From the NCBI GenBank assembly GCA_024637095.1, contig JAGXFV010000043.1, positions 1 to 51,729 on the forward strand: 51,729 bases of DNA, in the 5' to 3' direction. This stretch comes from Actinomycetes bacterium (GTDB lineage Bacteria; Actinomycetota; Thermoleophilia; RBG-16-64-13). Shown here piece by piece: positions 1 through 27,445 of the stretch; the first letter of the stretch is position 1; every line of letters starts with the position of its first letter. The notes under the pieces are model-generated. The model made no database searches and was not told the origin of the DNA. It saw only the letters and a list, made by a program, of their open reading frames with translations. The translations under genes were made by a program, and so were the position numbers.

Positions 1-3
1 AGA

Positions 4-11
4 CTCCTCCT
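4..11 (-). promoter_or_regulatory. Shine-Dalgarno site of the riboswitch-controlled gene
   Basis: On the minus strand these bases read AGGAGGAG, a near-perfect ribosome binding site, about 50 bases downstream of the GEMM-I aptamer. With normal spacing the start codon falls just left of base 1. The bases between aptamer and this site (59-12) contain a small CCAGG/CCUGG hairpin (60-56 with 49-45) that could be part of the expression platform. No long U tract follows it, so control of translation is as likely as termination. Confidence 0.7.
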
Positions 12-59
12 AATGACGAGGCCGACCGGATAGCACGATGCTGTCCAGGTTGGCCCCTG

Positions 60-143
60 GAACTTCGGTAGCCCGGCCGACTCCTAAGCGGAGTTCCGTG
101 GCTTTGCGCCCCCACCTCACGATGGGTTTGCCTTTTCGCGTTC
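60..143 (-). ncRNA. GEMM-I (cyclic-di-GMP class I) riboswitch aptamer
   Basis: Read on the minus strand, this stretch has the conserved order of the GEMM-I aptamer. There is a short closing stem GAAC/GUUC (143-140 with 63-60), then GGCAAACC, then a six-pair stem CCCAUC/GGUGGG capped by a GUGA (GNRA) tetraloop at 120-117. Next come the hallmark GGCGCAAAGCCACGG segment, a second hairpin ACUCC/GGAGU (94-90 with 84-80), and the terminal GGCCGGGCUACCGAAG. The family binds c-di-GMP, or 3',3'-cGAMP in the GEMM-Ib variant. By hand alignment to Vc2, the base equivalent to G20 is G, which favours c-di-GMP; a one-base slip would change that. The regulated gene lies left of the window. Confidence 0.88.
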
Positions 144-378: not shown

Positions 379-1830
379 CTAAGTAGGCAGAATTTCGCTA
401 GTTCGTCGCAGGTAGCGAATGAATAGGTAAGCAGCGAACATGTAGACGATCCGCCCAGCGACCATAGCCTGAGGAAAGTCTGTCAAGTCCACTTGTCCGT
501 TGATGAGCCAAAGAAGACTCAGGCCGTTAGCCAGGTAACCCAGAAGGATCGCGGCCACATACATATCTTGGCGGCGCACTACGTTGAAGATGGAGTTAGC
601 GGGCTGAAAGCTGCTGACGACGGGCAATAGCAGCCCCCATTGCATTGCCGGAACGGCGTCCACGTACGCGGGAACGACCAGTCTCACGGCGGGCCCCACA
701 AACCACCAACCCACTCCCACCACCAGGACAAGCCCGACGGCTGTGATGAGAATGGGCTTCCGAACCATTACTGCAAGATCCTCGACGCTGCTATTGCGGC
801 CGTATTGCTCGGCCATCCGCGGATACACCACCTGGGAGACCGCTTGGGGTATGAACTCCACAGCGGCAATGGCCACCAGCACCATAGAGAAGAGTCCCAT
901 TCCTTCGGTACCGGCCAACCTCAGGACCAAAGTCGAATTGATCGTCGTCCACCATCCGTACAGCATTCCGACTCCGAAGATGGGGGCTCCCACGATCAGA
1001 AGGTGTTTAAGGTGAGGGAAGTCCCAACGAGGACCTACCCTCACGGGTCGCCAGTAGTGAAGAATCGCCGTACTTACGGCCCCGGCGATCAGTGCGCGCA
1101 AGCACAAGCCATAGAAGTCCTGCCACCAGACAACGCTAATTAGCGCGAGCAATAGTCCAGCCTCCACCACTCCCACCAGAGCGAGCCTCGCGAAATCGTG
1201 CGACGTGCGATAGGTCATCTGGAGATAATTGGTGTTGTAGAACAAGTTGAGAGCCAGGAGAGCATGTGTGAACCAACCTGCAGCCCTCAAGGTCTCTCCC
1301 TCAGCCAAGTGCCAACCGGCAACGCCCAACAGTGCCATCGCCACCACGCTCCCCACTATGAGCGCCCAGGCCTGAGCTGCCGCGGCCAACTCCCGCACCA
1401 GCTGCTGATGGCCGCGGCCGACATGGTAGGGAAGTTCTCGATTGAGACCGTTGAGAACGCCCAACTGCAGAACGGGTGCATACCCGAGGGCGAGCCCGAT
1501 ACCGTTGAAGAGCCCCAAGGTTGAAGGAGCAACAAACCGGCCGATGAGCACCCCGCTGGCCAGACGCAGGGCCATCGAAACGAAGTTGCCTCCCGCCAGA
1601 GAGCCGATCAAGAACGAGAGTGAACGCTGCGGAGTAACGGCATCCGAGTCTGCGCCGGGGCCGTCCGCCGGACTGCCGGTCAAGGACTCGGCTGGCTCAG
1701 CCTGCGTTGATCTCTCTGGTGCGGGTGTCAGCTCGCTCAAGCCAGTCGAGTCCGAAATCTGCCCCATGGGCAAAGTCGCAGACCGGCCGCCCTCACTGCC
1801 GACAGCCGGGCGTTTCGTTCGGAGTGCCAC
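379..1830 (-). CDS. Wzx-like polysaccharide flippase / transport protein
   Basis: Predicted multi-pass membrane protein of the polysaccharide transporter (MATE/Wzx-like) superfamily. It would move lipid-linked oligosaccharide repeat units across the cytoplasmic membrane. After a polar, Pro/Ser/Ala-rich leader of about 65 residues, the chain shows roughly a dozen hydrophobic segments beginning with SFLIGSLAGGNFVSMALRLA and ending at AAYLFIRYLRR, typical of the family in length and spacing. The GTG start at 1830 has no obvious ribosome site; the true start may be further in, for example ATG at 1770. It faces away from the Wzy-like gene at 2056, which with the glycosyltransferases fits a Wzx/Wzy-dependent assembly locus. 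The specific substrate cannot be read from sequence. Confidence 0.8.
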   Translation of the reverse strand: MALRTKRPAVGSEGGRSATLPMGQISDSTGLSELTPAPERSTQAEPAESLTGSPADGPGADSDAVTPQRSLSFLIGSLAGGNFVSMALRLASGVLIGRFVAPSTLGLFNGIGLALGYAPVLQLGVLNGLNRELPYHVGRGHQQLVRELAAAAQAWALIVGSVVAMALLGVAGWHLAEGETLRAAGWFTHALLALNLFYNTNYLQMTYRTSHDFARLALVGVVEAGLLLALISVVWWQDFYGLCLRALIAGAVSTAILHYWRPVRVGPRWDFPHLKHLLIVGAPIFGVGMLYGWWTTINSTLVLRLAGTEGMGLFSMVLVAIAAVEFIPQAVSQVVYPRMAEQYGRNSSVEDLAVMVRKPILITAVGLVLVVGVGWWFVGPAVRLVVPAYVDAVPAMQWGLLLPVVSSFQPANSIFNVVRRQDMYVAAILLGYLANGLSLLWLINGQVDLTDFPQAMVAGRIVYMFAAYLFIRYLRRTSEILPT

Positions 1831-2055: not shown

Positions 2056-3486
2056 ATGAAGACCTCCAATCAAGCACTCGACTACGTGGCTCGGGTTGTC
2101 GCCCCGATGATCATCATGAGCACCACAGCGCTGGTAATCGTCCTAGACGCACCCTACGCGGTTGCGGCCTGGGGGGTTATTGTTCTGCTTGCCACGTTCG
2201 CATGGAATCGCTTCAATCCCTTATGGCCTTTCCTTGCTCTCGTTGCAGCCATCCAGGGGGGCATCCTTCTGCAGCTTCCCCCGGCGGCCGGCTCTCTTCA
2301 GACCGCGCTGCCTCTCCTCGGTGCACTGGTCCTGACTTCCCTCTTCATTAACGGCAACCTGGTGCCGCGAGCAGACCGCGTTCGGCTCAATCATGCCCGT
2401 TTCCCTCTTCCCCTTATGATCTTCCTGGTCACAGTGCTGGTCACGGACTTGGCCCGAGCATGGACATCAGAGTCGTTTGCGTCTGCGATGCAAGGCAGCC
2501 TCACGTATGTCCAACTCGCCGCACTCACGTTCGTGGCGGTCCTTCTGCTTACTGACCCCCGCCGAGTAACTTTGATGGCATATGCGATCATTGCCAGCGG
2601 GGTCGTGGCCGCAGTCATGACCCTTGCCGCCCAGTTAGGACCAGGACCTTCCGCAGCCGAAATCGTCGACCGAGGTTACACCCGCGCCGTCGGCGCACTT
2701 ACCGACCCCAACTTCTTCTCATTTCAGCTGCTCGTACCGTTTGCCTTCGCATTCTATATGTCCATCACTGCCGTATCCCGGGTGGAACGAGTTGCTCTGG
2801 TGCTCGCCTCGGCCGCCCTGGTCGCGGCCGTTGTCAGCACTTACTCCGCCGGAGCAATCGTGGGCCTCACCGCGGCTGTCGCCGCCACCCTAGTTCTCCA
2901 GCTCCGGGTGTCGATCTCCCGAGCCCTGACCGCCTTCGTAGCAATCTGCCTCGTCACAGCAATCGTAGCGGCCGCCGCACCGCCTCAGTATCTCGACACC
3001 GTCAACGCCAAATACGCCGCGATTACGAATACGACGCCTGAGGAGTGGGGAACCGGTCGTGGGGCCGCTTGGATAGCAGCCCTACGGACCTTTGAAAGCA
3101 ACCCCTTGCTAGGGGTCGGCACCCCGACGGAGAACATCCAGATCGCGATTGCCGAACATTTCGATTTCGCTCCGGTGACCAGGAAGGCGGCGCATAACAT
3201 GTATCTATCCACCGCAGTCGGGATGGGGGCCATAGGACTTGCCGCGTTCACCGTCCTCCTGATCAGCTCTCTGGCCACCTTGTGGTCGAGGTTCTCGGAT
3301 TTCAGCCGCGCCCACTCTGCGGAGGCCGCGCGCGCAATCGGCTGCCTCCTCCCCCCCCTCGTAGTGGTGATGGTTCAAGGGCTGCAACTCGACCTGCATC
3401 TCGAAAAGTACCTCTGGCTGCTTATCGGGGCAACGATTGCGATCCGTGAATGGAGGAATCCTGCCGATGCGGGCAGCGCGGACTGA
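2056..3486 (+). CDS. O-antigen ligase / Wzy-like polymerase family membrane protein
   Basis: Polytopic membrane protein of the O-antigen ligase/polymerase (Wzy_C, RfaL-like) superfamily, which joins or polymerises lipid-linked glycans on the outer face of the membrane. Many hydrophobic segments alternate with short loops. A large central loop (about residues 290-360, TGRGAAWIAALRTFESNPLLG followed by HNMYLSTAVGMG) carries the usual His-Asn and Arg-Gly-rich signature of the family. ATG 2056 is chosen because the hydrophobic chain begins there; the same frame stays open upstream to a GTG at 1948, with neither start having a strong ribosome site. The gene overlaps the next glycosyltransferase by about 20 bases. 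Confidence 0.8.
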   Translation: MKTSNQALDYVARVVAPMIIMSTTALVIVLDAPYAVAAWGVIVLLATFAWNRFNPLWPFLALVAAIQGGILLQLPPAAGSLQTALPLLGALVLTSLFINGNLVPRADRVRLNHARFPLPLMIFLVTVLVTDLARAWTSESFASAMQGSLTYVQLAALTFVAVLLLTDPRRVTLMAYAIIASGVVAAVMTLAAQLGPGPSAAEIVDRGYTRAVGALTDPNFFSFQLLVPFAFAFYMSITAVSRVERVALVLASAALVAAVVSTYSAGAIVGLTAAVAATLVLQLRVSISRALTAFVAICLVTAIVAAAAPPQYLDTVNAKYAAITNTTPEEWGTGRGAAWIAALRTFESNPLLGVGTPTENIQIAIAEHFDFAPVTRKAAHNMYLSTAVGMGAIGLAAFTVLLISSLATLWSRFSDFSRAHSAEAARAIGCLLPPLVVVMVQGLQLDLHLEKYLWLLIGATIAIREWRNPADAGSAD

Positions 3487-4648
3487 TAGTCTCGACCTCC
3501 CAGGACCAACGCCCCGCGTTCTCCTGGTGGCCGAAGACGGCAATTCTGGCGGGATAGGAAGATACTGCCTGGACCTTTGTGCCCTGCTGGGAGCGCAGGC
3601 GGCTCTGGTCTGTCTCTGCTCCGAAGTCGACACCGGAGACTGCGACGATTGCTGGCTCGCACGCCAGGCCGCCCAGAACGGCACGAGGATAATCCCGATC
3701 TCAATGCCCGCAAAATCATGGCGCGACGCCTATCGACAACTCCGCGCCGTTCTTGTCGCGCTGGAGAACCCCGTACTGCACGTGAATGGTCGCCGGGGCA
3801 ATTTCCTGGCCCTCCTAACGCGGGCTGCTGGCGATGTCAGCTTCGCCACCACCGCTCATGGAGTCCTTGGGACACATTACCGGGGGAACATGGTCTACCG
3901 GCATGTGGATAGGTGGACGTGGAGCGCGGCGAACGCGGTCGTCGCGGTCAGTTCTCATACGTACCGTCAACTGCTCACTGCGGGGGTGGGCCGGAACAAG
4001 ACGCGGCGCGTGCTGAACGCCCTTCCCCGGACTCGAATTGAGCATATGACCCAGACGTCACTTAGGAAACCTGCGCCTCGGACGACCGAAAACCTCGTGG
4101 TCGGATACCTCGGCCGGCTCGGCCCGGAAAAAGGAATCGAAGAGTTCGGACGACTGGCCCTGCGGCTGGCGGCGGAGGTGCCGGGGGTCCGCTTCAGAGT
4201 GGCGGGAGAAGGCCCCCACCGCGCCTGGCTGTCCCGGGAATGCCGACAACTATTGGCTTCGGAGACCATGGAACTCTTGGGCGAGGTGCAAGATCCCACT
4301 GTCTTCCTTGGCGGAATCGACATTTTGGTGATGCCGTCCCGGAATGAGGGACTGCCCTATGCGCTGCTCGAGGCGATGGCCGCCGGTTGCGCCGTGGTGG
4401 CATACGGGGTGGGGGGAATACCGGAAGTAGTGCGGGACTCCGGCCTCGGTGTGGTTGTCGGCCCCGGGGATCGGCTCAGGCTCTATTCCAGCCTAAGACA
4501 GTTACTGTCAACTCCAGAATCAGTCGCCCGCATGGGAGAGGCGGCAGCCGCCCAGGTCGCAGCGGGATACACCTTAGAAAGCCGCCTCCCGGGACTCCAA
4601 GAAATCTACGCGCTCTGTGGGGCGTCAATCATGCCGAAAGAGCACTGA
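3467..4648 (+). CDS. GT4-family glycosyltransferase
   Basis: Retaining GT-B glycosyltransferase of family GT4, predicted to add a sugar from a nucleotide donor to the growing lipid-linked oligosaccharide at the inner face of the membrane. The N-terminal half has the GG-IGRY acceptor-side motif. The C-terminal half has VGYLGRLGPEKGI and the E-x7-E donor motif in RNEGLPYALLEAMAAG, followed by GGIPEVV. ATG 3467 is preceded by GGAGG at suitable distance and is preferred over the upstream TTG 3437 in the same frame. It overlaps the polymerase gene by 20 bases and is followed after 4 bases by another GT4 gene, so the three are probably one transcript. Confidence 0.88.
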   Translation: MRAARTDSLDLPGPTPRVLLVAEDGNSGGIGRYCLDLCALLGAQAALVCLCSEVDTGDCDDCWLARQAAQNGTRIIPISMPAKSWRDAYRQLRAVLVALENPVLHVNGRRGNFLALLTRAAGDVSFATTAHGVLGTHYRGNMVYRHVDRWTWSAANAVVAVSSHTYRQLLTAGVGRNKTRRVLNALPRTRIEHMTQTSLRKPAPRTTENLVVGYLGRLGPEKGIEEFGRLALRLAAEVPGVRFRVAGEGPHRAWLSRECRQLLASETMELLGEVQDPTVFLGGIDILVMPSRNEGLPYALLEAMAAGCAVVAYGVGGIPEVVRDSGLGVVVGPGDRLRLYSSLRQLLSTPESVARMGEAAAAQVAAGYTLESRLPGLQEIYALCGASIMPKEH

Positions 4649-4652
4649 CGGC

Positions 4653-5837
4653 GTGCGTGTAGCCGTGGTCGACTTCACCAGCAACACGCCCTTCTTCTCC
4701 CGAGCGTTGAGCGATGCCCTGGAGGGCGAGGGACGGCTCTCGATCGAACTCATCAGTCCTCTTTTCTATCCGGAGCCAGAATATTTGGCGAACGCCCGGC
4801 GTCCTGGATGGGTTGTCGATTGGGCCATTCACGGGGCAAGCCGCAGAAGCACACGCGTTCCGTTGAGGGCACTCGAAGTGCTTGCCAACCTGGCTTCGCT
4901 CTGCAGGGCAATCCTGCGAGGGGATTACGACGTTGTCCACCTCCAATGGGTACCCGAGGAAGACAAGCAGACCGTGATGATGCGGCTGTTGCGGTGGGCA
5001 TGTGACCTTTCCGGCTGCTTGCTTACCCTGTCCGTACATAATGCCGTTCCTCACGACACCGAAGACGCGAACCTCAGGACGATCGGATCCAATCTTCGCT
5101 TGGCCCACCTGCTCATTTTCCACAGCGAAAATGTGCAGAAGCAGGCGGAGGCAAGGCTCGACGCACAAAACCCCAGTGCAATGATCCCCTGTCCTCATGT
5201 GTCCGTAGGGGATCTGCCTTCCAAGAAGGAGGCGAGAGCTCGCCTCGGAGAAGGGAACCGCCCGGTCGTGCTTCTCTTTGGCCTGATCAGGCCCTACAAG
5301 GGGCTTGATCTGTTACACGAGGCCTGGCCCGAGGTGAGAAATGCCTATCCAGACGCCCGTCTGTGGGTCGTGGGAAAACCGGAGGGCGACATAGCCGAGG
5401 AGCACGTCAAGCAGATCGCCGTGCTACCCGGTGTCAAATTGACAGACCGGTATGTGACGTGGCGCGAGATGCTGGACTTCATGGCCGCCACGGATGTCGC
5501 CGTGTTCCCCTACCGAGACGCGTCGCAGTCCGGGGCCCTCATGACCGCGGTGAGTTGCGGACGTCCGGTGGTCATTACTCCGGTCGAGGGCCTGATAGAG
5601 CAAACGGCTGATCTTACCTCGAGTTCGATGGCGGAAAACATCAGCGGACCTGCTCTCGCAGCGGCGCTCAACGACGCCCTGGAAAACAGGCAATTGCTGG
5701 GGATACGAGCAGAAGAAGACCGGCGCCGGCTCGAGGCTTCGCCGATTGGATGGGCAACCGCCGCCAGGACAATGGCCGAGCGATACCGTCGGGCGCTTAA
5801 AGAACTAAGCCACCCCGACCCGCAGACTAACCCGTAG
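4653..5837 (+). CDS. GT4-like glycosyltransferase
   Basis: GT-B glycosyltransferase, about 394 residues. The protein begins VRVAVVDF, a typical first beta strand, so GTG 4653 (4 bases after the preceding stop) is preferred to GTG 4617. The donor-binding half has LLFGLIRPYKGLDLL, then WVVGKPEG, then VFPYRDASQSGALMTAVSCG where classical GT4 enzymes have the E-x7-E motif. Here the first acidic position is replaced by the DASQSG loop, a variant seen in some GT4 subgroups. It probably works in the same polysaccharide pathway as its neighbours. Donor and acceptor are unknown. Confidence 0.82.
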   Translation: MRVAVVDFTSNTPFFSRALSDALEGEGRLSIELISPLFYPEPEYLANARRPGWVVDWAIHGASRRSTRVPLRALEVLANLASLCRAILRGDYDVVHLQWVPEEDKQTVMMRLLRWACDLSGCLLTLSVHNAVPHDTEDANLRTIGSNLRLAHLLIFHSENVQKQAEARLDAQNPSAMIPCPHVSVGDLPSKKEARARLGEGNRPVVLLFGLIRPYKGLDLLHEAWPEVRNAYPDARLWVVGKPEGDIAEEHVKQIAVLPGVKLTDRYVTWREMLDFMAATDVAVFPYRDASQSGALMTAVSCGRPVVITPVEGLIEQTADLTSSSMAENISGPALAAALNDALENRQLLGIRAEEDRRRLEASPIGWATAARTMAERYRRALKELSHPDPQTNP

Positions 5838-5876
5838 GCGCAGACATACGTAACTGTTTACACATCAGGAGCCAAC

Positions 5877-7169
5877 ATGGTAAGGGTATTGCTCATCAAC
5901 GACTCCCTTAGTAACCCCAACTGGGGAGATCGAGCTGCTGCCGTGTCCCTCCGAAGGATGATTGCAGAAGTGGGGGGAGAAGTAGCCCACTTTATCACCG
6001 AGCGATCTCTCATATTCTCTACCTTTGCTAAACCACAAACTTACGTGGATGCTCCCGAAGAGCCTAAAGCTAGAAACGTTCTCAGAGAATTTATTCCGCC
6101 GGTGTTATTGTCCATTCGTCGCAGATTGATGGGCGAGTCCACTATAGATGCCAGCTCGCGCCTCATCCCACAGTCCGTTGACGATTTTGATCGTTATCTG
6201 AAAAATGCCTTGACCACCCCCGATCAGTATGGATACTTACTCCAAGCCATATCAGAGTGCGATATGGCAATAGTGCACGGCAACGGATGCATGGTGGGTA
6301 GCGGCATTATTCCACGGAGCGAACTATTTATCAGCTATCTTATAATGAAACATTTCGACAAACCGGTGTCAATAGTCAATCACACTGTAGACTTTGATAC
6401 TCCCGTACTCAAGCGTATGGCGCAATTGGTCTATCCTATGTTTGATGATGTGGTGTTTCGCGATATCTTCTCGGCAGAACGATGCGAGTTCTGCAATGGA
6501 AGATTTGCTCCGGATACGGCCTTCATCTTCGAGCCAGCCGCCAAAGACGAATGGAAGGCGGTCGCGGGCCGATCTACATACTTCGACGTATGGCCAGACC
6601 GTGGTTCTTTCGATCCATCCACGCCGTACATTTGTGTCGGAGGCTCGTCCGGGTACGGTTTCGAAGCTAGCGAATCTCCAGTCTTTCGCGGGTACAGCGA
6701 CCTGATACGGGGCGTAAAGCAGGTTTACGACGGACAGATCGTCTTGACGGCTTCCGATCTCACCGACAAAGAACTATTCCGCCCGCTTGCGGAGGAGCAC
6801 TCCCTGCCGCTTATCGGTGTGAGAACCCCTATTCAGCAGGTGGTTGACATCCTAGGCAATGCTGAGGCCTATGTGGGCGGGCGATGGCACCCTGCGATCT
6901 TCGCGCTACGCGGAGGAGTTCCTCTCGTGCCGCTCTCTGCCAAGACTTTCAAAATGCAGGCACTGGCGAACATGGCCGGCCTGAAGGGCCCGGTGTTCGA
7001 CGTACGAGGGCTTAGCGGGCAAACCGAGGAGCTGTGCCGGCGGCTGGAAGACCTCTTGGCCGAAGGTGAGCAGTTGAGGCACAGGCTGAAGTCTTGGGCT
7101 AGTCACATGGCCGACAACAGCTGGGACAACGTTGCCTACCTGTCGAACAGCGTGTCCCGCCGCCGATAA
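5877..7169 (+). CDS. Polysaccharide pyruvyl transferase family protein
   Basis: Member of the polysaccharide pyruvyl transferase family (CsaB/WcaK type), which puts pyruvate ketals from phosphoenolpyruvate onto sugars of surface polymers; some relatives have other activities. The N-terminus LLINDSLSNPNWGDRAA, the central IVHGNGCMVGSG, and the C-terminal YVGGRWHPAIFALRGGVPLV followed by SAKTFKMQALA match the GT-B-like family, including the conserved GGRWHP-type His motif. ATG 5877 has AGGAG nine bases upstream. The 5' part is unusually AT-rich (about 46% GC by hand count over 6001-6420), suggesting a different origin from the flanks. It is last in the plus-strand run and converges with the next gene. 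Confidence 0.82.
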   Translation: MVRVLLINDSLSNPNWGDRAAAVSLRRMIAEVGGEVAHFITERSLIFSTFAKPQTYVDAPEEPKARNVLREFIPPVLLSIRRRLMGESTIDASSRLIPQSVDDFDRYLKNALTTPDQYGYLLQAISECDMAIVHGNGCMVGSGIIPRSELFISYLIMKHFDKPVSIVNHTVDFDTPVLKRMAQLVYPMFDDVVFRDIFSAERCEFCNGRFAPDTAFIFEPAAKDEWKAVAGRSTYFDVWPDRGSFDPSTPYICVGGSSGYGFEASESPVFRGYSDLIRGVKQVYDGQIVLTASDLTDKELFRPLAEEHSLPLIGVRTPIQQVVDILGNAEAYVGGRWHPAIFALRGGVPLVPLSAKTFKMQALANMAGLKGPVFDVRGLSGQTEELCRRLEDLLAEGEQLRHRLKSWASHMADNSWDNVAYLSNSVSRRR

Positions 7170-7203
7170 GACCTAAACCTAGCTAACCCCGCGGCAGCCC
7201 ACA

Positions 7204-8418
7204 TCAATCCAGCGAAGGGACTTCACCGGCCGCAACCGACCGGAGAAGCCTTTCACAGGCATCTGCCAGGTTTTTCCAACTGTACTTCTCGGTGACCAGC
7301 GAACGCGCTTCGGCGCCAATCCTGGCTGCCAGTTCGGGCTCTTGCCAGAGTTCGCTGATTCGATCTATCAATTCCTGGTCCGAATTCGCCAGCACGACGT
7401 GCCGGCCAGCTGCGGCGCTTTCGATTCCCGCAATCGCCAACGGAGTGACCACGACCGGCTTGCCCATTGACATCCCTTCGAGAACCTTGTTCTTGATTCC
7501 CGCCCCGGACTGCATTGGCGCTACCAGAACCGCAGCTGCGTCGAGGTAAGGTCGGATGTCGGGGACGGAACCGGTTACGACGATGTCCGCATCCGTTCTC
7601 GCTGCCGACAGCAGCCGTTCGCTGGGATTAGATCCAACCAGCCAGACCCGCGCCCGCGGATGGCGCTGCTTGAGGCTTGGCCAGGCTCGCTCCAGGAACC
7701 ACAGGGCCGCCTCCACGTTAGGAGAGAAACCCATCGAGCCGTGAAAGGCTACGGTGAAGGGCTCCAGATGCCTGCCCGATGGCGAGAAATATTCGGAGTC
7801 CACCCCGTTGGGACTCGAGAAGATCCGTGCACTCGGCACAATCTGCTTCGCCCGGAGCGCGTCGGGTTCGGCGACGAAGACCGAGGCGGCAAAAGACCCG
7901 TATATTCTCTCCAGCCGCCGGGCCTGCAGACGGTTGAGCGCCAGACGGAAAGAGTGAAGGATGTTCTCCGGGGTTTCTCGTTCTAGGGCGAGCGTCAGAG
8001 AGTCGTGAGGGAAGGCCACGCAGGGTATCCCTTGAGCGTACTGCTGGTACTGGAGCATGGCGACGCCCTCGAACTGAATCACGTCGGGAGGGTCAAGGCT
8101 CAATTTCGCAAGCAACTCGTTGGAGAATTCCGCCGAGGAGCAGGCCAAGACCTCCCATGGAGTGAGGATAGTTGGCCACCTGCGCGGTGAGGACCATGTC
8201 GGTACGCGGCTTGTCTCAAAAACCGATACGCTCGCACAAAACGATTCGACCGGCTCTTGTCCAAGCATGTTCTTAGACTCATTGGAATCTGAGGCAAAGG
8301 CCATGAGGTCTACCGCATGACCTTGACGATGGTACCCCTTGATCAGTTGGTATAGCAGCAGCCGGAACCCGTCGACAAGTGAATCGGGATAGGATTGGGC
8401 AAGTACTTGTATCCGCAC
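7204..8418 (-). CDS. GT4-family glycosyltransferase
   Basis: GT-B glycosyltransferase of about 404 residues. It begins VRIQVLAQSYPDSLVDG, a normal first strand, so GTG 8418 is preferred. The frame remains open to 8493 and a longer product is possible. Donor-side features are VAFHGSMGFSPNVEAALWF, VWLVGSNPSE, VTGSVPDIRPYLDAAAVLV and APMQSGAGIKNKVLEGMSMG, where the acidic pair of the E-x7-E motif is partly replaced, as in the GT4 subgroup that includes many exopolysaccharide transferases. It ends convergent with the pyruvyl transferase gene 34 bases away, and is downstream of the 8515-10227 gene on the same strand. Confidence 0.82.
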   Translation of the reverse strand: MRIQVLAQSYPDSLVDGFRLLLYQLIKGYHRQGHAVDLMAFASDSNESKNMLGQEPVESFCASVSVFETSRVPTWSSPRRWPTILTPWEVLACSSAEFSNELLAKLSLDPPDVIQFEGVAMLQYQQYAQGIPCVAFPHDSLTLALERETPENILHSFRLALNRLQARRLERIYGSFAASVFVAEPDALRAKQIVPSARIFSSPNGVDSEYFSPSGRHLEPFTVAFHGSMGFSPNVEAALWFLERAWPSLKQRHPRARVWLVGSNPSERLLSAARTDADIVVTGSVPDIRPYLDAAAVLVAPMQSGAGIKNKVLEGMSMGKPVVVTPLAIAGIESAAAGRHVVLANSDQELIDRISELWQEPELAARIGAEARSLVTEKYSWKNLADACERLLRSVAAGEVPSLD

Positions 8419-8514
8419 GTAACTTGTCTTTCTACTAGTTGTTGCCCGCCTGCCCGAAATCGACCGCCGCGGGCGCTCACAGTCGAAAACCAAACCGGCA
8501 TGGCGATCAAGGAG

Positions 8515-10227
8515 CTAGATTCTGGATTCGATGGTTTCGAGAATCCTAGCTGCTGCTTTTCCATCATCGCTGTACAATCGCTCTGAAATGAAGTGACGCC
8601 ACGCCTGGCTCCGGCCTCCCCAATAATCGTCGCGGCTCATCCCGAGCAAGGTGCGCAACTTCACCTCTGCCGTCGAGGCGTCATCCGCAAACTCGGCGAC
8701 GCCTTCGTCTACGAAGGCACGGTCGGGGGCCTCCTGCATGTTGCCAACATCCACGATAAGCACAGGTGTCCTCGCGACGATCGCCATGATCGCTAAAGTA
8801 GTGTAGTTGCAGATAACCACGTCTGCGGCGCACATTAGAGATTCGTTGTCCTCAAGAGTGCCGACTATGCAGAAATCCATACCGCGTTGGGATGCGGCGT
8901 CGGTTTCAATTGCGCCGCCGCCCTCGTCAGAGGGGTGGAGCTTGAAGAGCAGTTGAGTCCCGCCCACCTTGCTGACTGCCCGAGTTATTATCGCCAATTC
9001 CGCCTTCTTGACACTGCGGGGATAGGAAGCATGAACCTGCCAGGTCGCAACGACGACCCAGGGTTTTGACGGATCGAGTAGGTAACGCCCAACAAGTTCG
9101 GCGCGAAGCCTTTTGCGTTGTGTGCGCAAGTGAACTGTTCGGTCGTACAATGTTGTGCCTACGACAGCCAACCGGTCCGGCGAGGCTCCTCTCTTGAGAA
9201 AGATTCTCCGGGCGAACTCGCCATTGAGAAAAGTCGTGGCCTCCAGAGGCTGGGAGATTTCGGGGGCGTCCATAGGTAGCCCATACTGTATGGAGAAAGC
9301 CTGGGCTCCTCCCAATTGAGCCCCCACGATCAGGGACCTCACAGCCTCGCCGCCGTCTTGAGGAACCACGATCGCCTTGATCCGGTGTCGCCTGCACCAC
9401 TGCTCGGTGGCCAAGATGGTACCGAGGACGGAGCCCATCTGGTTGACTCTCTTGGATAAGAAGGGAAGAAGCAGGGGCCGCAGATCCCATCCCTTCCAAT
9501 CAGCGAAGTATTCCATGCGGCCGTCGCGCCTTGCCTCGATCCAATTTCGCCGGAACTCTCCACCCGTACGCCAGGCCTCCCAAGCGGTACGTGGTGAAAT
9601 CATGCTGTTCGGCGTCTCCCATCGCCAACCGGAGGGAAGCGGGAAAGGTGGGGCTGTCTCGAGACCGGCGAGAACAGTCGTCGGCCGCTCTTGGGCCGGA
9701 ACGCGCTCTGCAACTGGAACGATAGCCGGCGCGATCTTCTGGGACCAGGGGAAGAAAGCCAGTCGAATCTGATCCGAGGACCCGGAACTGCCGTGGCCTG
9801 TACGAGAACGGACAATTTGCAGAGGCAGGGATAGTGGTCTATAGAAACTGCCCTCGTAGACCAGTGCCCTGACCAACTCGCCTGTCGGCAGACGGGAGGC
9901 AGCCCGGATCTTTGCTCCCTCGTGTCTAGCCGCTACCGACCTCGAGGCACGCACCTTGACCGAACCGGTTTCTCCCAGCAGGCTCACACTTCCCGCAAGC
10001 TCCACGACAGCCTCGTCCATCACGGCGAGCTCATGGAACCAGTAAGGCCACACGAGTCCTATCCAGCTCCCCTCGAAAAGACGGGCTAGATCGATCCCTC
10101 GGTACATCAACAGGCCCTCGAGGACCCCGCCGCCCGCGGCCGGATCTCCGAACAGGTCGTTGTAGAGTAGCCGCGGAGCCTCGCCCCCACCCCACTCGCT
10201 TCTCAGGCGCCAGGCGCCTGTAGCCAT
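8515..10227 (-). CDS. GT-B-like surface carbohydrate biosynthesis protein, unassigned
   Basis: A 570-residue soluble protein without a firm family assignment. The C-terminal third looks like the donor-binding half of GT-B/CDP-glycerol-glycerophosphotransferase-like or capsule-type transferases: VVVATWQVHASYPRS, then LLFKLHPSD, then ESLMCAADVVICNYTTLAIM, then VLIVDVG. The KLHP and CNYTT patterns resemble proteins that place a phosphate-linked or capsular sugar. The N-terminal half (to about residue 250) has no motif I recognise. ATG 10227 has GAGAGG eight bases upstream. It is divergent from the nonulosonic acid operon, with 182 bases between them. Role in polysaccharide assembly is inferred from position and fold only. 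Confidence 0.6.
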   Translation of the reverse strand: MATGAWRLRSEWGGGEAPRLLYNDLFGDPAAGGGVLEGLLMYRGIDLARLFEGSWIGLVWPYWFHELAVMDEAVVELAGSVSLLGETGSVKVRASRSVAARHEGAKIRAASRLPTGELVRALVYEGSFYRPLSLPLQIVRSRTGHGSSGSSDQIRLAFFPWSQKIAPAIVPVAERVPAQERPTTVLAGLETAPPFPLPSGWRWETPNSMISPRTAWEAWRTGGEFRRNWIEARRDGRMEYFADWKGWDLRPLLLPFLSKRVNQMGSVLGTILATEQWCRRHRIKAIVVPQDGGEAVRSLIVGAQLGGAQAFSIQYGLPMDAPEISQPLEATTFLNGEFARRIFLKRGASPDRLAVVGTTLYDRTVHLRTQRKRLRAELVGRYLLDPSKPWVVVATWQVHASYPRSVKKAELAIITRAVSKVGGTQLLFKLHPSDEGGGAIETDAASQRGMDFCIVGTLEDNESLMCAADVVICNYTTLAIMAIVARTPVLIVDVGNMQEAPDRAFVDEGVAEFADDASTAEVKLRTLLGMSRDDYWGGRSQAWRHFISERLYSDDGKAAARILETIESRI

Positions 10228-10409
10228 CTAATGCCTCTCGGTAGGACAACCAGCAATGCGGTCAAGAGTCTACCAAGCCAGCGACCCGAGCAATCAGCCT
10301 CTGTTGTCAAAGACTCTGCGAACAGCGAGGTCACTTCAGTTGGGGTTCTTATGCGACGATATTGTGTATGTTCTCTCTTGAACTCCGATCCGAATAAGGG
10401 TGGCACATT

Positions 10410-11384
10410 TTGAGCAGAGTTCTGGTCACGGGCGCGGCCGGCTACATAGGTTCCGTCCTCGTCCGCTTTCTCCTGGCGGACGGCTACGCGGTCCGAGCTT
10501 ACGACAACCTCACCTTCGGTGGGGAATCGCTGATCCCGGTGTACAACCACCCGGAGTTCGGGTTCGTAAAGGGGGATGTGCGGGACGCCCAGCAACTTGA
10601 AGCCGCGCTGATGGATGTCGACGCGGTCGTTCACCTGGCCGCCATCGTGGGAGATCCCGCCTGCGCCAAGCAACCGGAGCTTGCGCGAGAAATCAATTGG
10701 GAAGCGTCGCGCGTTCTCTTCGACCTCGCAAGCGCTGCCGCCGGAGTCGAGCGCTTCATCTTCGCCTCGACCTGCAGTAACTACGGGAAGATGGAAGGGG
10801 ATGGATTTGTCAACGAAGACTCTCCGCTAACCCCGGTTTCCCTTTACGCCAAGCTGAAGGTGGAATTCGAGCAATACTTGATGGGAAGTGATATCTCCGA
10901 GACCTTCGTTCCGACCGCTCTGCGTTTCTCCACCGTTTATGGGCTTTCCCCTCGGACCCGCTTCGACCTCACAGTGAACGAATTCGCCCGGGACGTCGCG
11001 CTCGGACGCGAGCTTGAAATCTTTGGCGAGCAATTCTGGCGCCCCTACTGTCACGTCGATGACCTAGCGCGGGCGTGCATCTTCACGCTTAAGGGCGACG
11101 CGGCGAAGGTGCGACAGAACGTGTTTGGCGTGGGCGACACCGATCAAAACTACCAAAAGAAAATGCTGGCAGAAGAGCTCTGGAAGATCGATCCGGATGC
11201 GAAGATACGCTTCGTGCACAAAGACGAGGATCCGCGCGACTACCGTGTTGACTTCTCGAAGATAAGAGAGCAGCTGGGATTCAAAATAACCAAGCGAGTG
11301 CCGGAGGGCCTCAGAGAGATCTACGACATCGTCCGCCAGGGAATCATCTCCAACCCAGACGCAGATGTTTACAAGAATATCTGA
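10410..11384 (+). CDS. NAD-dependent epimerase/dehydratase family (extended SDR)
   Basis: Extended short-chain dehydrogenase of about 324 residues, acting on a nucleotide sugar. The N-terminal VLVTGAAGYIGSVLVR is the NAD-binding GxxGxxG motif. The active site shows STCSNYG and SLYAKLK, giving Thr/Ser plus the YxxxK pair. The STDE motif of 4,6-dehydratases is absent, so this is more likely an epimerase or 4-reductase than LegB-type dehydratase. The TTG start at 10410 has AAGGG upstream. It heads a tightly packed operon; the next gene starts 15 bases later. Substrate unknown; it could prepare the sugar for the nonulosonic acid pathway or another residue of the polymer. Confidence 0.82.
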   Translation: MSRVLVTGAAGYIGSVLVRFLLADGYAVRAYDNLTFGGESLIPVYNHPEFGFVKGDVRDAQQLEAALMDVDAVVHLAAIVGDPACAKQPELAREINWEASRVLFDLASAAAGVERFIFASTCSNYGKMEGDGFVNEDSPLTPVSLYAKLKVEFEQYLMGSDISETFVPTALRFSTVYGLSPRTRFDLTVNEFARDVALGRELEIFGEQFWRPYCHVDDLARACIFTLKGDAAKVRQNVFGVGDTDQNYQKKMLAEELWKIDPDAKIRFVHKDEDPRDYRVDFSKIREQLGFKITKRVPEGLREIYDIVRQGIISNPDADVYKNI

Positions 11385-11399
11385 GGGTGGGGAGCAAGC

Positions 11400-12554
11400 A
11401 TGATTCCGCTATCGGTTCCCCATATCAAGGGCAATGAGTGGAAGTACGTCAAGGAGTGCCTGGACACCGAGTGGGTGTCCACCGCCGGCAAGTACGTCGG
11501 CCAGTTCGAAGAGTCTCTCCGGGAGTACACTGACGCAGGTCACGCGGTGGCCTGCGTCAACGGGACGGCCGCCCTACAGGTCGCACTACGCATCGTGGGA
11601 GTTCTCCCGGGCGACGAAGTGATTGTGCCCACCGTAACCTTCGTAGCCACCGTTAACGCGGTGTCGTACCAGGGTGGCGCCCCGGTCTTCATGGACTGCG
11701 ACGACTACTACAACATCGACTCTGCCAAGGTGCTGGAGTTCCTGGAGAAGCAAACCGAGACTAGGGACGGCTCCACCTACAATCGGGCGAGCGGCAAGCG
11801 GATTGCCGCACTGGTGCCCGTCCACGTCTTTGGAAACGCCGCGCGACTGGAAGATCTGCTCGACGCGTGTCGGGAGCGCAACATCAAGATCGTGGAAGAC
11901 GCCGCCGAGAGCCTGGGCACCGCATACACGGAGGGCCGACTTACGGGCCGACACACAGGCACCGTCGGCGATATTGGCTGCTTCTCCTTCAACGGCAACA
12001 AAATCATCACCACCGGCGGAGGCGGGATGATCGTCACCGACAACCCCGAGTACGCCGAGAGGGCACGATACCTGACTACCCAGGCCAAGGACGACGAGGT
12101 CCGCTACATTCACGAGGACATCGGCTACAACTACAGACTGACCAACGTTCAGGCGGCGATTGGAGTCGCCCAGATGGAGTCCCTCCCTGAGTTCCTCGAG
12201 GCCAAGCGCAGGAATTTTCTGAGCTACGAGTCAGCTCTGGAAGACGTGGAGGGACTGCAGCTGGCTACCAGCCCCGCCTATGCTCGCAACAACCATTGGA
12301 TGTATCCACTCCGCATAGACAGGCAAGCCTACGGCCGCGATCGTGAAGCGCTCATGCGCGACCTACAATCCAAGGGAGTCCAGACCAGACCCCTATGGCA
12401 GCTCAACCACCTGCAGACCCCGTTCCGAGACTTCCAACACTACCGCATCGAAATGGCCCCAAAGCTGCTGGAGGAAACGCTGAATCTCCCGTGCAGCGTC
12501 AACCTGACTCAAAGCGACGTCGAGTACGTGGTGCAAGCTCTAGTCGATGAGTAG
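11400..12554 (+). CDS. legC: LegC-family sugar aminotransferase (DegT/DnrJ/EryC1)
   Basis: PLP-dependent aminotransferase that converts a 4-keto-6-deoxy amino sugar nucleotide to the 4-amino sugar. The start IPLSVPHIKGNEWKYVKE, the EWVSTAGKYV segment and the FMDCDDYYNID segment are typical of the LegC branch used for legionaminic acid. The PLP lysine is in SFNGNKIITTGGGG (about residue 200), with the cofactor Asp in VEDAAESLG. Length (384) is normal. The gene overlaps the NeuD-type acyltransferase by 8 bases. The expected partner dehydratase is not in the operon; the membrane dehydratase at 23001-25064 could supply substrate. Assignment to legionaminic rather than another 5,7-diamino sugar is inference. 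Confidence 0.82.
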   Translation: MIPLSVPHIKGNEWKYVKECLDTEWVSTAGKYVGQFEESLREYTDAGHAVACVNGTAALQVALRIVGVLPGDEVIVPTVTFVATVNAVSYQGGAPVFMDCDDYYNIDSAKVLEFLEKQTETRDGSTYNRASGKRIAALVPVHVFGNAARLEDLLDACRERNIKIVEDAAESLGTAYTEGRLTGRHTGTVGDIGCFSFNGNKIITTGGGGMIVTDNPEYAERARYLTTQAKDDEVRYIHEDIGYNYRLTNVQAAIGVAQMESLPEFLEAKRRNFLSYESALEDVEGLQLATSPAYARNNHWMYPLRIDRQAYGRDREALMRDLQSKGVQTRPLWQLNHLQTPFRDFQHYRIEMAPKLLEETLNLPCSVNLTQSDVEYVVQALVDE

Positions 12555-13176
12555 GGTGGTGGTAATTGGAGGTGGCGGGCACGCCAAAGTGGTCGTCGCC
12601 GTTCTCAAGAAGCTTGGCTTCGTCGTGGCCGGCTACACCGACCCCCGCGACCGGGGTCCGCTTCTCAGGGCGGCCTTTCTAGGGAATGATGAGGTGCTGG
12701 AGGATCTGATTCGCAAGGATCCTTCCTGCCTCGCGGTTCTGGGCACAGGCAAGCTCGATACCTCTCCGTCCAGGATGGACCTCCAACGAGCGGTTCGCTC
12801 CCTGGGATACCGTTTCCCCACGATTTCTTCTCCTCAGGCGATAGTGAACGAGGAGGTGGAACTCGGCCCGGGCACCGTCGTCTTCGATGGAGCAGTGGTC
12901 AACAGCGGCACTACCGTGGGTGGCTGGTCCATTCTCAACACCAGCAGCACAGTGGAGCATGACTGCGTCATTGGGGAAGACGTCCATGTTGCTCCCGGCG
13001 CCACGGTGAGCGGGGGTGTCAGGATCGGTGACAATTGTATGATAGGGGCGGGAGCCACCCTAATACACGGGATCACGGTCGGTGCCGATTGCCTGGTGGG
13101 AGCGGGCTCGACCGTGGTCGACGATCTGCCTGACCCCGGCACCTACATGGGCAGTCCCGCCAGGAGGATCTCGTGA
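12547..13176 (+). CDS. NeuD/PglD-family sugar O/N-acyltransferase
   Basis: Left-handed beta-helix acyltransferase of the NeuD/PglD family, 209 residues. The N-terminal MSRVVVIGGGGHAKVVV is the Rossmann-like sugar-nucleotide binding part. The C-terminal two thirds is hexapeptide repeats, with STVEHDCVIGEDVHVAPGA containing the catalytic His, ending in the usual GSPARRI. In nonulosonic acid pathways this family acetylates the 4-amino sugar nucleotide made by LegC-type enzymes, or O-acetylates sialic acid. Directly following LegC, N-acylation is the better guess. ATG 12547 overlaps the previous stop by 8 bases; its own stop overlaps the next GTG by 4 bases. Confidence 0.88.
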   Translation: MSRVVVIGGGGHAKVVVAVLKKLGFVVAGYTDPRDRGPLLRAAFLGNDEVLEDLIRKDPSCLAVLGTGKLDTSPSRMDLQRAVRSLGYRFPTISSPQAIVNEEVELGPGTVVFDGAVVNSGTTVGGWSILNTSSTVEHDCVIGEDVHVAPGATVSGGVRIGDNCMIGAGATLIHGITVGADCLVGAGSTVVDDLPDPGTYMGSPARRIS

Positions 13177-13868
13177 CCCGCCTGGCGGTGATCCCCGCCC
13201 GCGGCGGGTCGAAGCGGGTTCCTGGGAAGAATGTCAGAAATCTCCGGGGCAAGCCGCTCTTGGCCTATACGATCGAGGCCGCCCTGCAAAGCGGGCTGTT
13301 CCATCGCGTCGTCGTAACCACCGACGCAGAGGAGATTGCCCAGGTTGCCGCCCAGTGGGGCGCTGAGGTCCCCTTCATGCGGGCCCCCCAACTGGCCGAT
13401 GACATAACCCCGGTCTCGGCTGCGACGGCAGATGCGTTGAAGCGAGTTGACCCCACCGGAGATCAGTACGCCTTCGTGTGTCAACTGATGCCCAACTGCC
13501 CGTTGAGGACCGCCGCAGACATCCTCGCAAGCTACGACCAACTGAGCAACAGCGGGTCGGCGGCGCAACTCTCGGTAGTCCGCTACGGCTGGCAGAATCC
13601 CTGGTGGGCCATGAGCCGCCAGGACAACCTGACCCTGGAGCCTCTTTTTCCCGACGCCCTAACGGAGCGCAGCCAGGATCTTCCGGAACTATTCTGCCCG
13701 ACGGGTGCAGTCTGGTGGGCTCGCGCTGAGGTTCTGAGACGGCAGGGCACCTTTCACGTGCCCGGAAGGACCGGCTGGGAGATTTCGTGGCAGCACGGCC
13801 TCGACATCGACACCGAAGACGACTGGGCCATGGCCGAAGTCCTGGCCGCGGGAATCCAGTCCGCATGA
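13173..13868 (+). CDS. Acylneuraminate (nonulosonate) cytidylyltransferase
   Basis: CMP-sugar synthetase of the NeuA/LegF/PseF family, 231 residues. It activates a nonulosonic acid with CTP to give the CMP donor. The signature AVIPARGGSKRVPGKNVR at the N-terminus binds CTP, followed by KPLLAYTIEAAL and later VCQLMPNCPLRTAADI. The GTG start shares four bases with the upstream stop (GTGA), and its stop overlaps the next ATG the same way, indicating translational coupling. Presence together with the NeuB-type synthase at 14803 is the core evidence for a nonulosonic acid pathway. Which acid is used cannot be told from this gene. Confidence 0.92.
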   Translation: MTRLAVIPARGGSKRVPGKNVRNLRGKPLLAYTIEAALQSGLFHRVVVTTDAEEIAQVAAQWGAEVPFMRAPQLADDITPVSAATADALKRVDPTGDQYAFVCQLMPNCPLRTAADILASYDQLSNSGSAAQLSVVRYGWQNPWWAMSRQDNLTLEPLFPDALTERSQDLPELFCPTGAVWWARAEVLRRQGTFHVPGRTGWEISWQHGLDIDTEDDWAMAEVLAAGIQSA

Positions 13869-25315: not shown

Positions 25316-27445
25316 GTGCACAAAGTGGCTCTCGGCTCCAAGGCCGCGTTCCCTCTGATATTCCTCTTCCTCGCGCTTCTGTTTGCGGTGCAATCAGCGC
25401 CTGTCCGGGCCACCACCGTGATCCAGTTGTCCCTCGGCGAGATGGCGGAACTCGCCGACTACGTCGCGGTGGTCGAGGTGAAGAGCACCAGCGCCCGCCA
25501 AGTGCAAGGCCAGAGCGCGATCGAGACCACCGCAGATCTGCGCGTCCGCCGGGCGATGAAGGGCCCCGGCCGGGGGAGGACCGCTTTACCCGCCGTGGCC
25601 AAAGCCCCGGGTGGAAAACTCGGCGGGCTGACGATGGTCGTCCCGGGATCGCCGGCATTCCGCCCCGGCGAGAAGGCGCTCCTCTTCCTCGACGCAGAAG
25701 GCAGAGTAATAGGGGGATGGCAGGGCAAGCTTCGCGTAGAGGGTGAGCGGGTGCCCGAACTCGGGCTGACACTCGAAGAGGTGGAAGCCGTGGTCGCCGG
25801 GCGCGACAAAGCGAACTCGGCCAACACCGTCGTCCCCACCGCCTCCCCCTCCGAGGCAACCGCGGAGTCGGCTATCGCCGACGCCCCGAACCCCGCAGCC
25901 GCCGCGAGCACGGCCGGTCCCGTAATCGCCGACATTACCCCAGACTCGGGTTCCGCGGGCACCCACACCCTGGTGACCCTCACCGGCTCGGGTTTTGGGA
26001 CCAGCCAGGTAGGTGCGGGCGTCGACTTCACCTACCGGGGTGACACGCCCGTCCGCGCCACAAGCATCCGCGAATGGACCGACGCGCGCATAGTCGCCGA
26101 AGTACCCATTGGCTACGTCAGCAACTACCCCGCCTCCGCCGGCTCGGGCTACGTGACCGTCGTCAACTCCCTCGGAGAGCGCAGCAACGGCGTCTGGTTC
26201 GACGTGACCTTCGGCTACGGCGGCATCCGCTGGCAGGGCGACAACGTGTCGTTCAGGGTGAACGCCAACACCGCCGACACCGCCCTAGAAGGCTCCTCGG
26301 TCGGCGCCGCCGCCTCCACCTGGAGCGCTGCGGGCGGCTTCACCTTCCAAAACCTCGGAAGTTCCGCCGTCACCGACAACTCTCGAGACGGACAGAATTC
26401 CATCTTCTGGAGCAGCACTCTGCTCCCGGTGGGCATGCTCGCCCAGGCCTCCTACTGGACCTCGAACGGGATCATCTACGAAGCCGACATCGCCTTCAAC
26501 GATTACTACAACTGGGGAACCGGCTCCTCGTACTCCGTCTACGACGTGCAGAGCACCGCCTTGCACGAGTTGGGCCACTGGCTGAACTTACGAGATCTCT
26601 ACGGCGATGATCGCGAGAAGGTGCTGTTTGGTCAGGGGAGCCCGGGAACCCAGAAGCGAGTCTTGAGCGCCGGAGACATAGCCGGACTGCAATGGATTTA
26701 CGGCGCCGGCACAGCTCCCCCGGTCACGAGCACAACGTCCACAACCACGTCCACCTCGAGTACCTCGACCACCAGCACCACGCAGGCTACTCCGTCGACC
26801 ACGAGCACGACCACACCGTCGGTGACGACCACCTCGATCCCGTCAACGTCGACCTCCACCACCGTGCCGAGCCCCGGACCCGGGCCCTCGCCCGCCCCGA
26901 GCTTCCTGGACGTCTCCACGCAACACGAGTTCTATGCGGCGATAAGCTACCTGGCGGCGGAGGGAGTCATAGGGGGTTACGCAGACGGCACCTTCGGCCC
27001 GTACAACCCCGTGCTCCGGGCCCAATTGGCGAAGATGGCGGTGCTGGGCTTCGAGCTGGACGATACGGGTGACTTCCTCACCCAGGCGAGCTTTCCGGAC
27101 GTCCCTTACAACGGAGCCGCCTATCCCTTCGAGTTCGTGGAGCAGGCGGCGCGGGCAGGAATCATCAACGGCTACGCCAACGGCAACTTCGGGCCGTATG
27201 ATCGGCTGACCCGCATCCAGCTGGTGCGCATCCTGGTGCGCGCGGGAGGCGACGAGCTGGCCGCCCCACCGGCGGGCTACGATCCCGGCTTTGCCGACGT
27301 GCCCCCGTCAGACCTTACTTACGTGGCTACCGCCCACTTCAACGGGCTCGTGAACGGCAAAAGCGCGAGCCTCTTCGATCCCTACGGAACGGCAACCCGC
27401 GGCCACGTGGCCAAGATCCTGTACAACACTTTGATGGCGGACTGA
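25316..27445 (+). CDS. Secreted SLH-domain zinc metalloprotease with TIG domain
   Basis: 709-residue exported protein. Signal peptide residues 1-34 (hydrophobic FPLIFLFLALLFAVQSAP, cleavage near VRA). An unassigned domain follows to about 190, then an IPT/TIG Ig-like domain (about 200-285: PVIADITPDSGSAGTHTLV). A matrixin-like metallopeptidase carries HELGHWLNL with zinc His residues 417 and 421. The third ligand is unclear because LRDLYGDD replaces the usual LGLxH. A Thr/Ser linker (about 468-520) leads to three SLH repeats (from 529) with LRAQLAKM, TRIQLVRI and TRGHVAKI. GTG 25316 is chosen over GTG 25280 because GGAGG precedes it and the signal peptide begins there. SLH repeats anchor to pyruvylated wall polymers. 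Confidence 0.88.
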   Translation: MHKVALGSKAAFPLIFLFLALLFAVQSAPVRATTVIQLSLGEMAELADYVAVVEVKSTSARQVQGQSAIETTADLRVRRAMKGPGRGRTALPAVAKAPGGKLGGLTMVVPGSPAFRPGEKALLFLDAEGRVIGGWQGKLRVEGERVPELGLTLEEVEAVVAGRDKANSANTVVPTASPSEATAESAIADAPNPAAAASTAGPVIADITPDSGSAGTHTLVTLTGSGFGTSQVGAGVDFTYRGDTPVRATSIREWTDARIVAEVPIGYVSNYPASAGSGYVTVVNSLGERSNGVWFDVTFGYGGIRWQGDNVSFRVNANTADTALEGSSVGAAASTWSAAGGFTFQNLGSSAVTDNSRDGQNSIFWSSTLLPVGMLAQASYWTSNGIIYEADIAFNDYYNWGTGSSYSVYDVQSTALHELGHWLNLRDLYGDDREKVLFGQGSPGTQKRVLSAGDIAGLQWIYGAGTAPPVTSTTSTTTSTSSTSTTSTTQATPSTTSTTTPSVTTTSIPSTSTSTTVPSPGPGPSPAPSFLDVSTQHEFYAAISYLAAEGVIGGYADGTFGPYNPVLRAQLAKMAVLGFELDDTGDFLTQASFPDVPYNGAAYPFEFVEQAARAGIINGYANGNFGPYDRLTRIQLVRILVRAGGDELAAPPAGYDPGFADVPPSDLTYVATAHFNGLVNGKSASLFDPYGTATRGHVAKILYNTLMAD

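Follow-up and report, generated by a model that had tools for sequence, protein, structure and literature searches.

The analysed DNA, called the window below, is a stretch of 51,729 nt corresponding to the whole of contig G000:C17, from a source genome of 49 contigs (2.47 Mb, 96.6% complete). On its minus strand, close to base 1, lie a class I cyclic-di-GMP (GEMM-I) aptamer at 142–63, a terminator-like hairpin and a ribosome binding site. As the contig physically stops at base 1, the gene downstream of these features cannot be read. Upstream and in the same direction, a gene at 379–1830 (minus strand) encodes a Wzx-like polysaccharide flippase (PF13440, E 9.2e-7). It is followed at 2056–13868 by the rest of a polysaccharide locus, for which Pfam identified an O-antigen ligase-like protein, glycosyltransferases, a pyruvyl transferase, an epimerase, a DegT aminotransferase, a PglD-like protein and a cytidylyltransferase. 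These matches agree with the preliminary description, which had placed the aptamer at the end of a polysaccharide locus. A protein search of GTDB contigs with the window flippase returned no match. Another SLH-domain protein was observed at 26795–27424 of the window, in a frame of 740 aa.

The aptamer was identified by Rfam profile search. RF01051 (c-di-GMP-I) matches the minus strand at 64–142 with 63.4 bits (E 4.3e-12), well above its gathering cut-off of 35 bits, and RF03167 (c-di-GMP-I-GGC) matches at 63–140 of the same strand with 61.0 bits, for a cut-off of 59 bits. The assignment to class I c-di-GMP riboswitches, previously made by eye, is thereby confirmed, as is the presence of the core elements on the minus strand. 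These comprise P2 (131–106), capped by the GNRA tetraloop GUGA (120–117), P3 (103–70), the core motifs GCAAAGCCACGG and GGCCGGGCUACCGAAG, and a closing P1 formed by the two ends of the aptamer, with pairings GAAC/GUUC and CG/CG and an extension of 143–141 with 62–60. Like other members of RF01051, the window aptamer has two helices, a GNRA loop on P2, the C44–G83 interhelical pair and the bases equivalent to G20, A47 and C92 of Vc2; it differs by a short P3 cap, the rest lying within the variation of the family. It is a standard, canonical GEMM-I aptamer, and its biology is ordinary for GEMM-I. Taken by itself, its free energy does not stand out (z −1.57).

We aligned 30 aptamers from the same family and scored them on the GEMM-I structure. 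Overall, 83.3% of the cells are paired and 17 pairs have changed on both sides. The proportion of paired cells reaches 98.9% in P2 and 93.3% in P3, and stands at 41.7% in P1, a helix that is poorly aligned in this cross-subtype alignment. The interhelical pair equivalent to C44–G83 is kept in all 30 aptamers. None of 500 shuffles matched the observed alignment on any of five measures, and sliding the partners by 1–3 columns roughly halved the number of paired cells, the observed value exceeding all slid controls. This covariation, above all shuffles and slid controls, argues that the aptamer is not a chance match. We estimate at about 0.9 the probability that 142–63 is a c-di-GMP-I riboswitch in a gene leader, a figure that excludes both the identity of the target and the direction of the switch.

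The contig stops 63 nt past the aptamer. The ribosome binding site previously described at 11–4 (minus strand) is indeed found there, as AGGAGGAG, with 5 nt between GGAGG and the contig end. Seven related leaders of this type (L037, L041, L046, L051, L052, L054, and L173) have their start codon 62 to 68 nt after the aptamer and GGAGG 4–8 nt ahead of the start codon. With this spacing and placement, the start codon following the window leader is expected no more than about 5 nt beyond base 1. The earlier proposal of a regulated gene just outside the window is therefore supported as to its placement, the gene itself lying beyond the end of the contig.

The nature of this gene can be approached through the seven relatives. 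By eye, all the proteins encoded downstream of these leaders have hydrophobic N-termini. According to Pfam, the targets of L037 and L051 combine a beta-helix of the pectate-lyase/rhamnogalacturonase type with SLH domains, those of L046, L054, and L173 contain a beta-helix of this type without SLH, and that of L052 is a cellulase-like protein; Big_7 or SLH accompanies the beta-helix among these targets. The L041 target has a weak, below-cut-off match to a carbohydrate-esterase N-domain. These comparisons suggest that the regulated gene encodes an exported cell-surface protein. The role in envelope assembly first envisaged for the target should accordingly be amended: an exported surface protein with beta-helix and S-layer domains is likelier than an envelope-assembly enzyme.

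Within the source genome, the best candidate for the target is an N-terminally truncated gene opening contig C46, an assignment that we consider somewhat better than an even bet. The 380-aa open frame at the start of C46 lacks its N-terminus and combines a beta-helix region with three SLH domains, an architecture also seen in the G006 and G003 targets. It is followed by a second beta-helix gene and, on the opposite strand, by genes for a UDP-sugar dehydrogenase and an epimerase. We infer that this end of C46 adjoins base 1 of the window. Among the contig ends of the genome, all of which were read, no other was seen to carry a truncated beta-helix gene that reads inward. Furthermore, G005:C142 carries a homolog of the flippase of the window (46%) 1.5 kb from, and convergent with, a homolog of the C46 dehydrogenase (65%), the orientation predicted by joining C17 to C46. 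Against the join, none of the contig ends, that of C46 included, overlaps the window start, and in G005 a different gene, without riboswitch, lies between the two. As a query, C46 gave 28 matches in its own genome, mostly to SLH modules. Genome G001, of the same genus, was considered as a guide to the target and rejected, its C46-like match being restricted to the SLH module and borne by a different protein; no switch of the window type was found in G001. Shared terminal sequences were observed between the contig ends C10/C45, C14/C34, and C14/C26 of the source genome, where repeats therefore probably broke the assembly.

A competing explanation retains the same riboswitch and assigns it to a different exported gene, one that fell into a gap of the assembly. 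In its favor, targets vary between relatives. Against it stand the uniqueness of the C46 end and the G005 synteny in favor of the join, so that we hold a gene lost in the gap to be a serious but somewhat less probable option than the C46 gene.

Between the aptamer and the ribosome site, a 40-nt terminator-like hairpin occupies 57–18 of the minus strand (−23.4 kcal/mol). It is followed by GUCAUU, without a U-tract, and has counterparts in several relatives. The leaders G015:C7 (L173), G012:C106 (L052), G006:C1 (L051), and G011:C62 (L046) share the aptamer subtype of the window and a hairpin after the aptamer, and they precede exported targets at 62–68 nt from the start codon, as expected for the window. 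In the first three, homologous hairpins are followed by U-tracts and look like intrinsic terminators, whereas the copies of G011 and of the window lack this tract. The hairpin does not overlap P1. As a bound aptamer consequently leaves the hairpin free, an OFF switch is favored, and we propose with moderate confidence that c-di-GMP turns expression off. In this model, c-di-GMP binding would stabilize the aptamer, the downstream hairpin would be free to form and expression would fall; at low c-di-GMP, the 3′ strand of P3 could pair instead with the 3′ arm of the hairpin. This alternative pairing involves 10 nt in the window and 13 nt in G015. As an antiterminator, this pairing was obtained in 47 of 300 shuffles for the window, which is within chance, and in 6 of 300 for G015, where the case for it is stronger. 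Having no U-run and a pairing recovered in 47 of 300 shuffles, the window copy thus lends the OFF mechanism weak support. Sequestration of the ribosome site by the 5′ arm of P3 was also considered and rejected, as it involves only five pairs.

The same aptamer might instead act as an ON switch, the ligand exposing the ribosome site or preventing termination. The absence of a U-tract after the window hairpin and the partial pairing, in the unbound ensemble, between the ribosome site and sequence upstream of it are in line with this tentative alternative. In the relatives with intact U-tracts, however, the terminator is placed after P1 without overlapping it, so that a bound aptamer does not compete with the terminator, and we regard an ON switch as the less probable direction. 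The missing U-tract could also be the mark of a decayed riboswitch without regulatory effect; this is improbable for a fully intact, covarying aptamer core associated with a strong ribosome site at a conserved distance.

The ligand can be predicted from the residues known to contact it. In Vc2, these are G20, A47, and C92 (PMC4744006, PMC3764141). Their equivalents in the window are G at 132, A at 105 (from the RF03167 alignment) and C at 68, all on the minus strand and invariant among the 30 aptamers. An A at position 20 is the hallmark of cGAMP switches, and in Gmet_0970 the A20G substitution turns the specificity from cGAMP to c-di-GMP (PMC6456294). From these bases, c-di-GMP is the expected ligand of the window aptamer: all three positions are of the c-di-GMP type, which argues against both cGAMP and the GGC label. 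This label, which would imply a GGC-type variant with another ligand, arises because, in cmscan, RF03167 has the best E-value of its clan for the window and most relatives, and the window does fit the overall RF03167 consensus. However, this consensus, on which our reading of the label rests, shows a conserved G at the position of A47, where A is present in the window and in all 30 relatives, and in bit score RF01051 exceeds RF03167 for the window; a GGC-type variant is very improbable. The case calls for caution with the Rfam label of best E-value when a ligand-contact base contradicts it. Where the Hypr enzymes, which make cGAMP, have S, the five readable GGDEF domains of this genome, in which 7 GGDEF and 3 EAL matches were found, have D (four) or N (one). 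A cGAMP-sensing GEMM-Ib switch as in Geobacter, which is alike in fold and in its association with surface genes and belongs to a family in which cGAMP switches are known ahead of surface and pilus genes (PMC6456294), has A at position 20 where the window has G, and is the least probable of all the explanations.

At least one GEMM-I is present in 17 of the 18 f1 genomes examined. A scan of GTDB contigs for the aptamer core retrieved 69 stretches, in Actinomycetota, Chloroflexota, Sericytochromatia, and others, and the frames located 3′ of these cores encode mostly exported proteins, as judged by eye; no aptamer core was found in the viral contigs scanned. The source genome carries a second GEMM-I aptamer (G000:C31:1539–1613; L084, L002), which precedes a type IV pilin gene and is conserved in at least seven related genomes. 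On its downstream side, a U-tailed hairpin contains GUGGUUUGCC, which is complementary to GGCAAACC(A/G)C of the aptamer, a sequence arrangement that suggests an antiterminator and an OFF response to c-di-GMP. In G010 (C1:492329–492415; L042), a GEMM-I aptamer is located 59 nt ahead of a gene for a GGDEF protein, where it could possibly exert feedback on c-di-GMP synthesis. An Armatimonadetes contig (L252, 4001–4134, minus strand) carries two GEMM-I cores at a distance of 111 nt, which may form a tandem switch. A Cobalamin riboswitch (92.4 bits) was detected in G001:C18 (L165, 640–817, minus strand).

With this aptamer, a little-studied lineage of uncultured actinobacteria gains a well-supported c-di-GMP switch, together with a probable class of targets. 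Beside a polysaccharide locus, a surface protein that probably binds or cuts polysaccharides would thereby be tied to the c-di-GMP level. No PilZ match was found in the genome of the window. A bolder and rather unlikely proposal is that c-di-GMP signaling in this Thermoleophilia lineage relies largely on RNA: in a genome with no detectable PilZ, paired GEMM-I switches would control the pilin and surface proteins that are anchored by SLH domains and associated with polysaccharides. If this were true, pili and surface coat would be set together by the same c-di-GMP signal.
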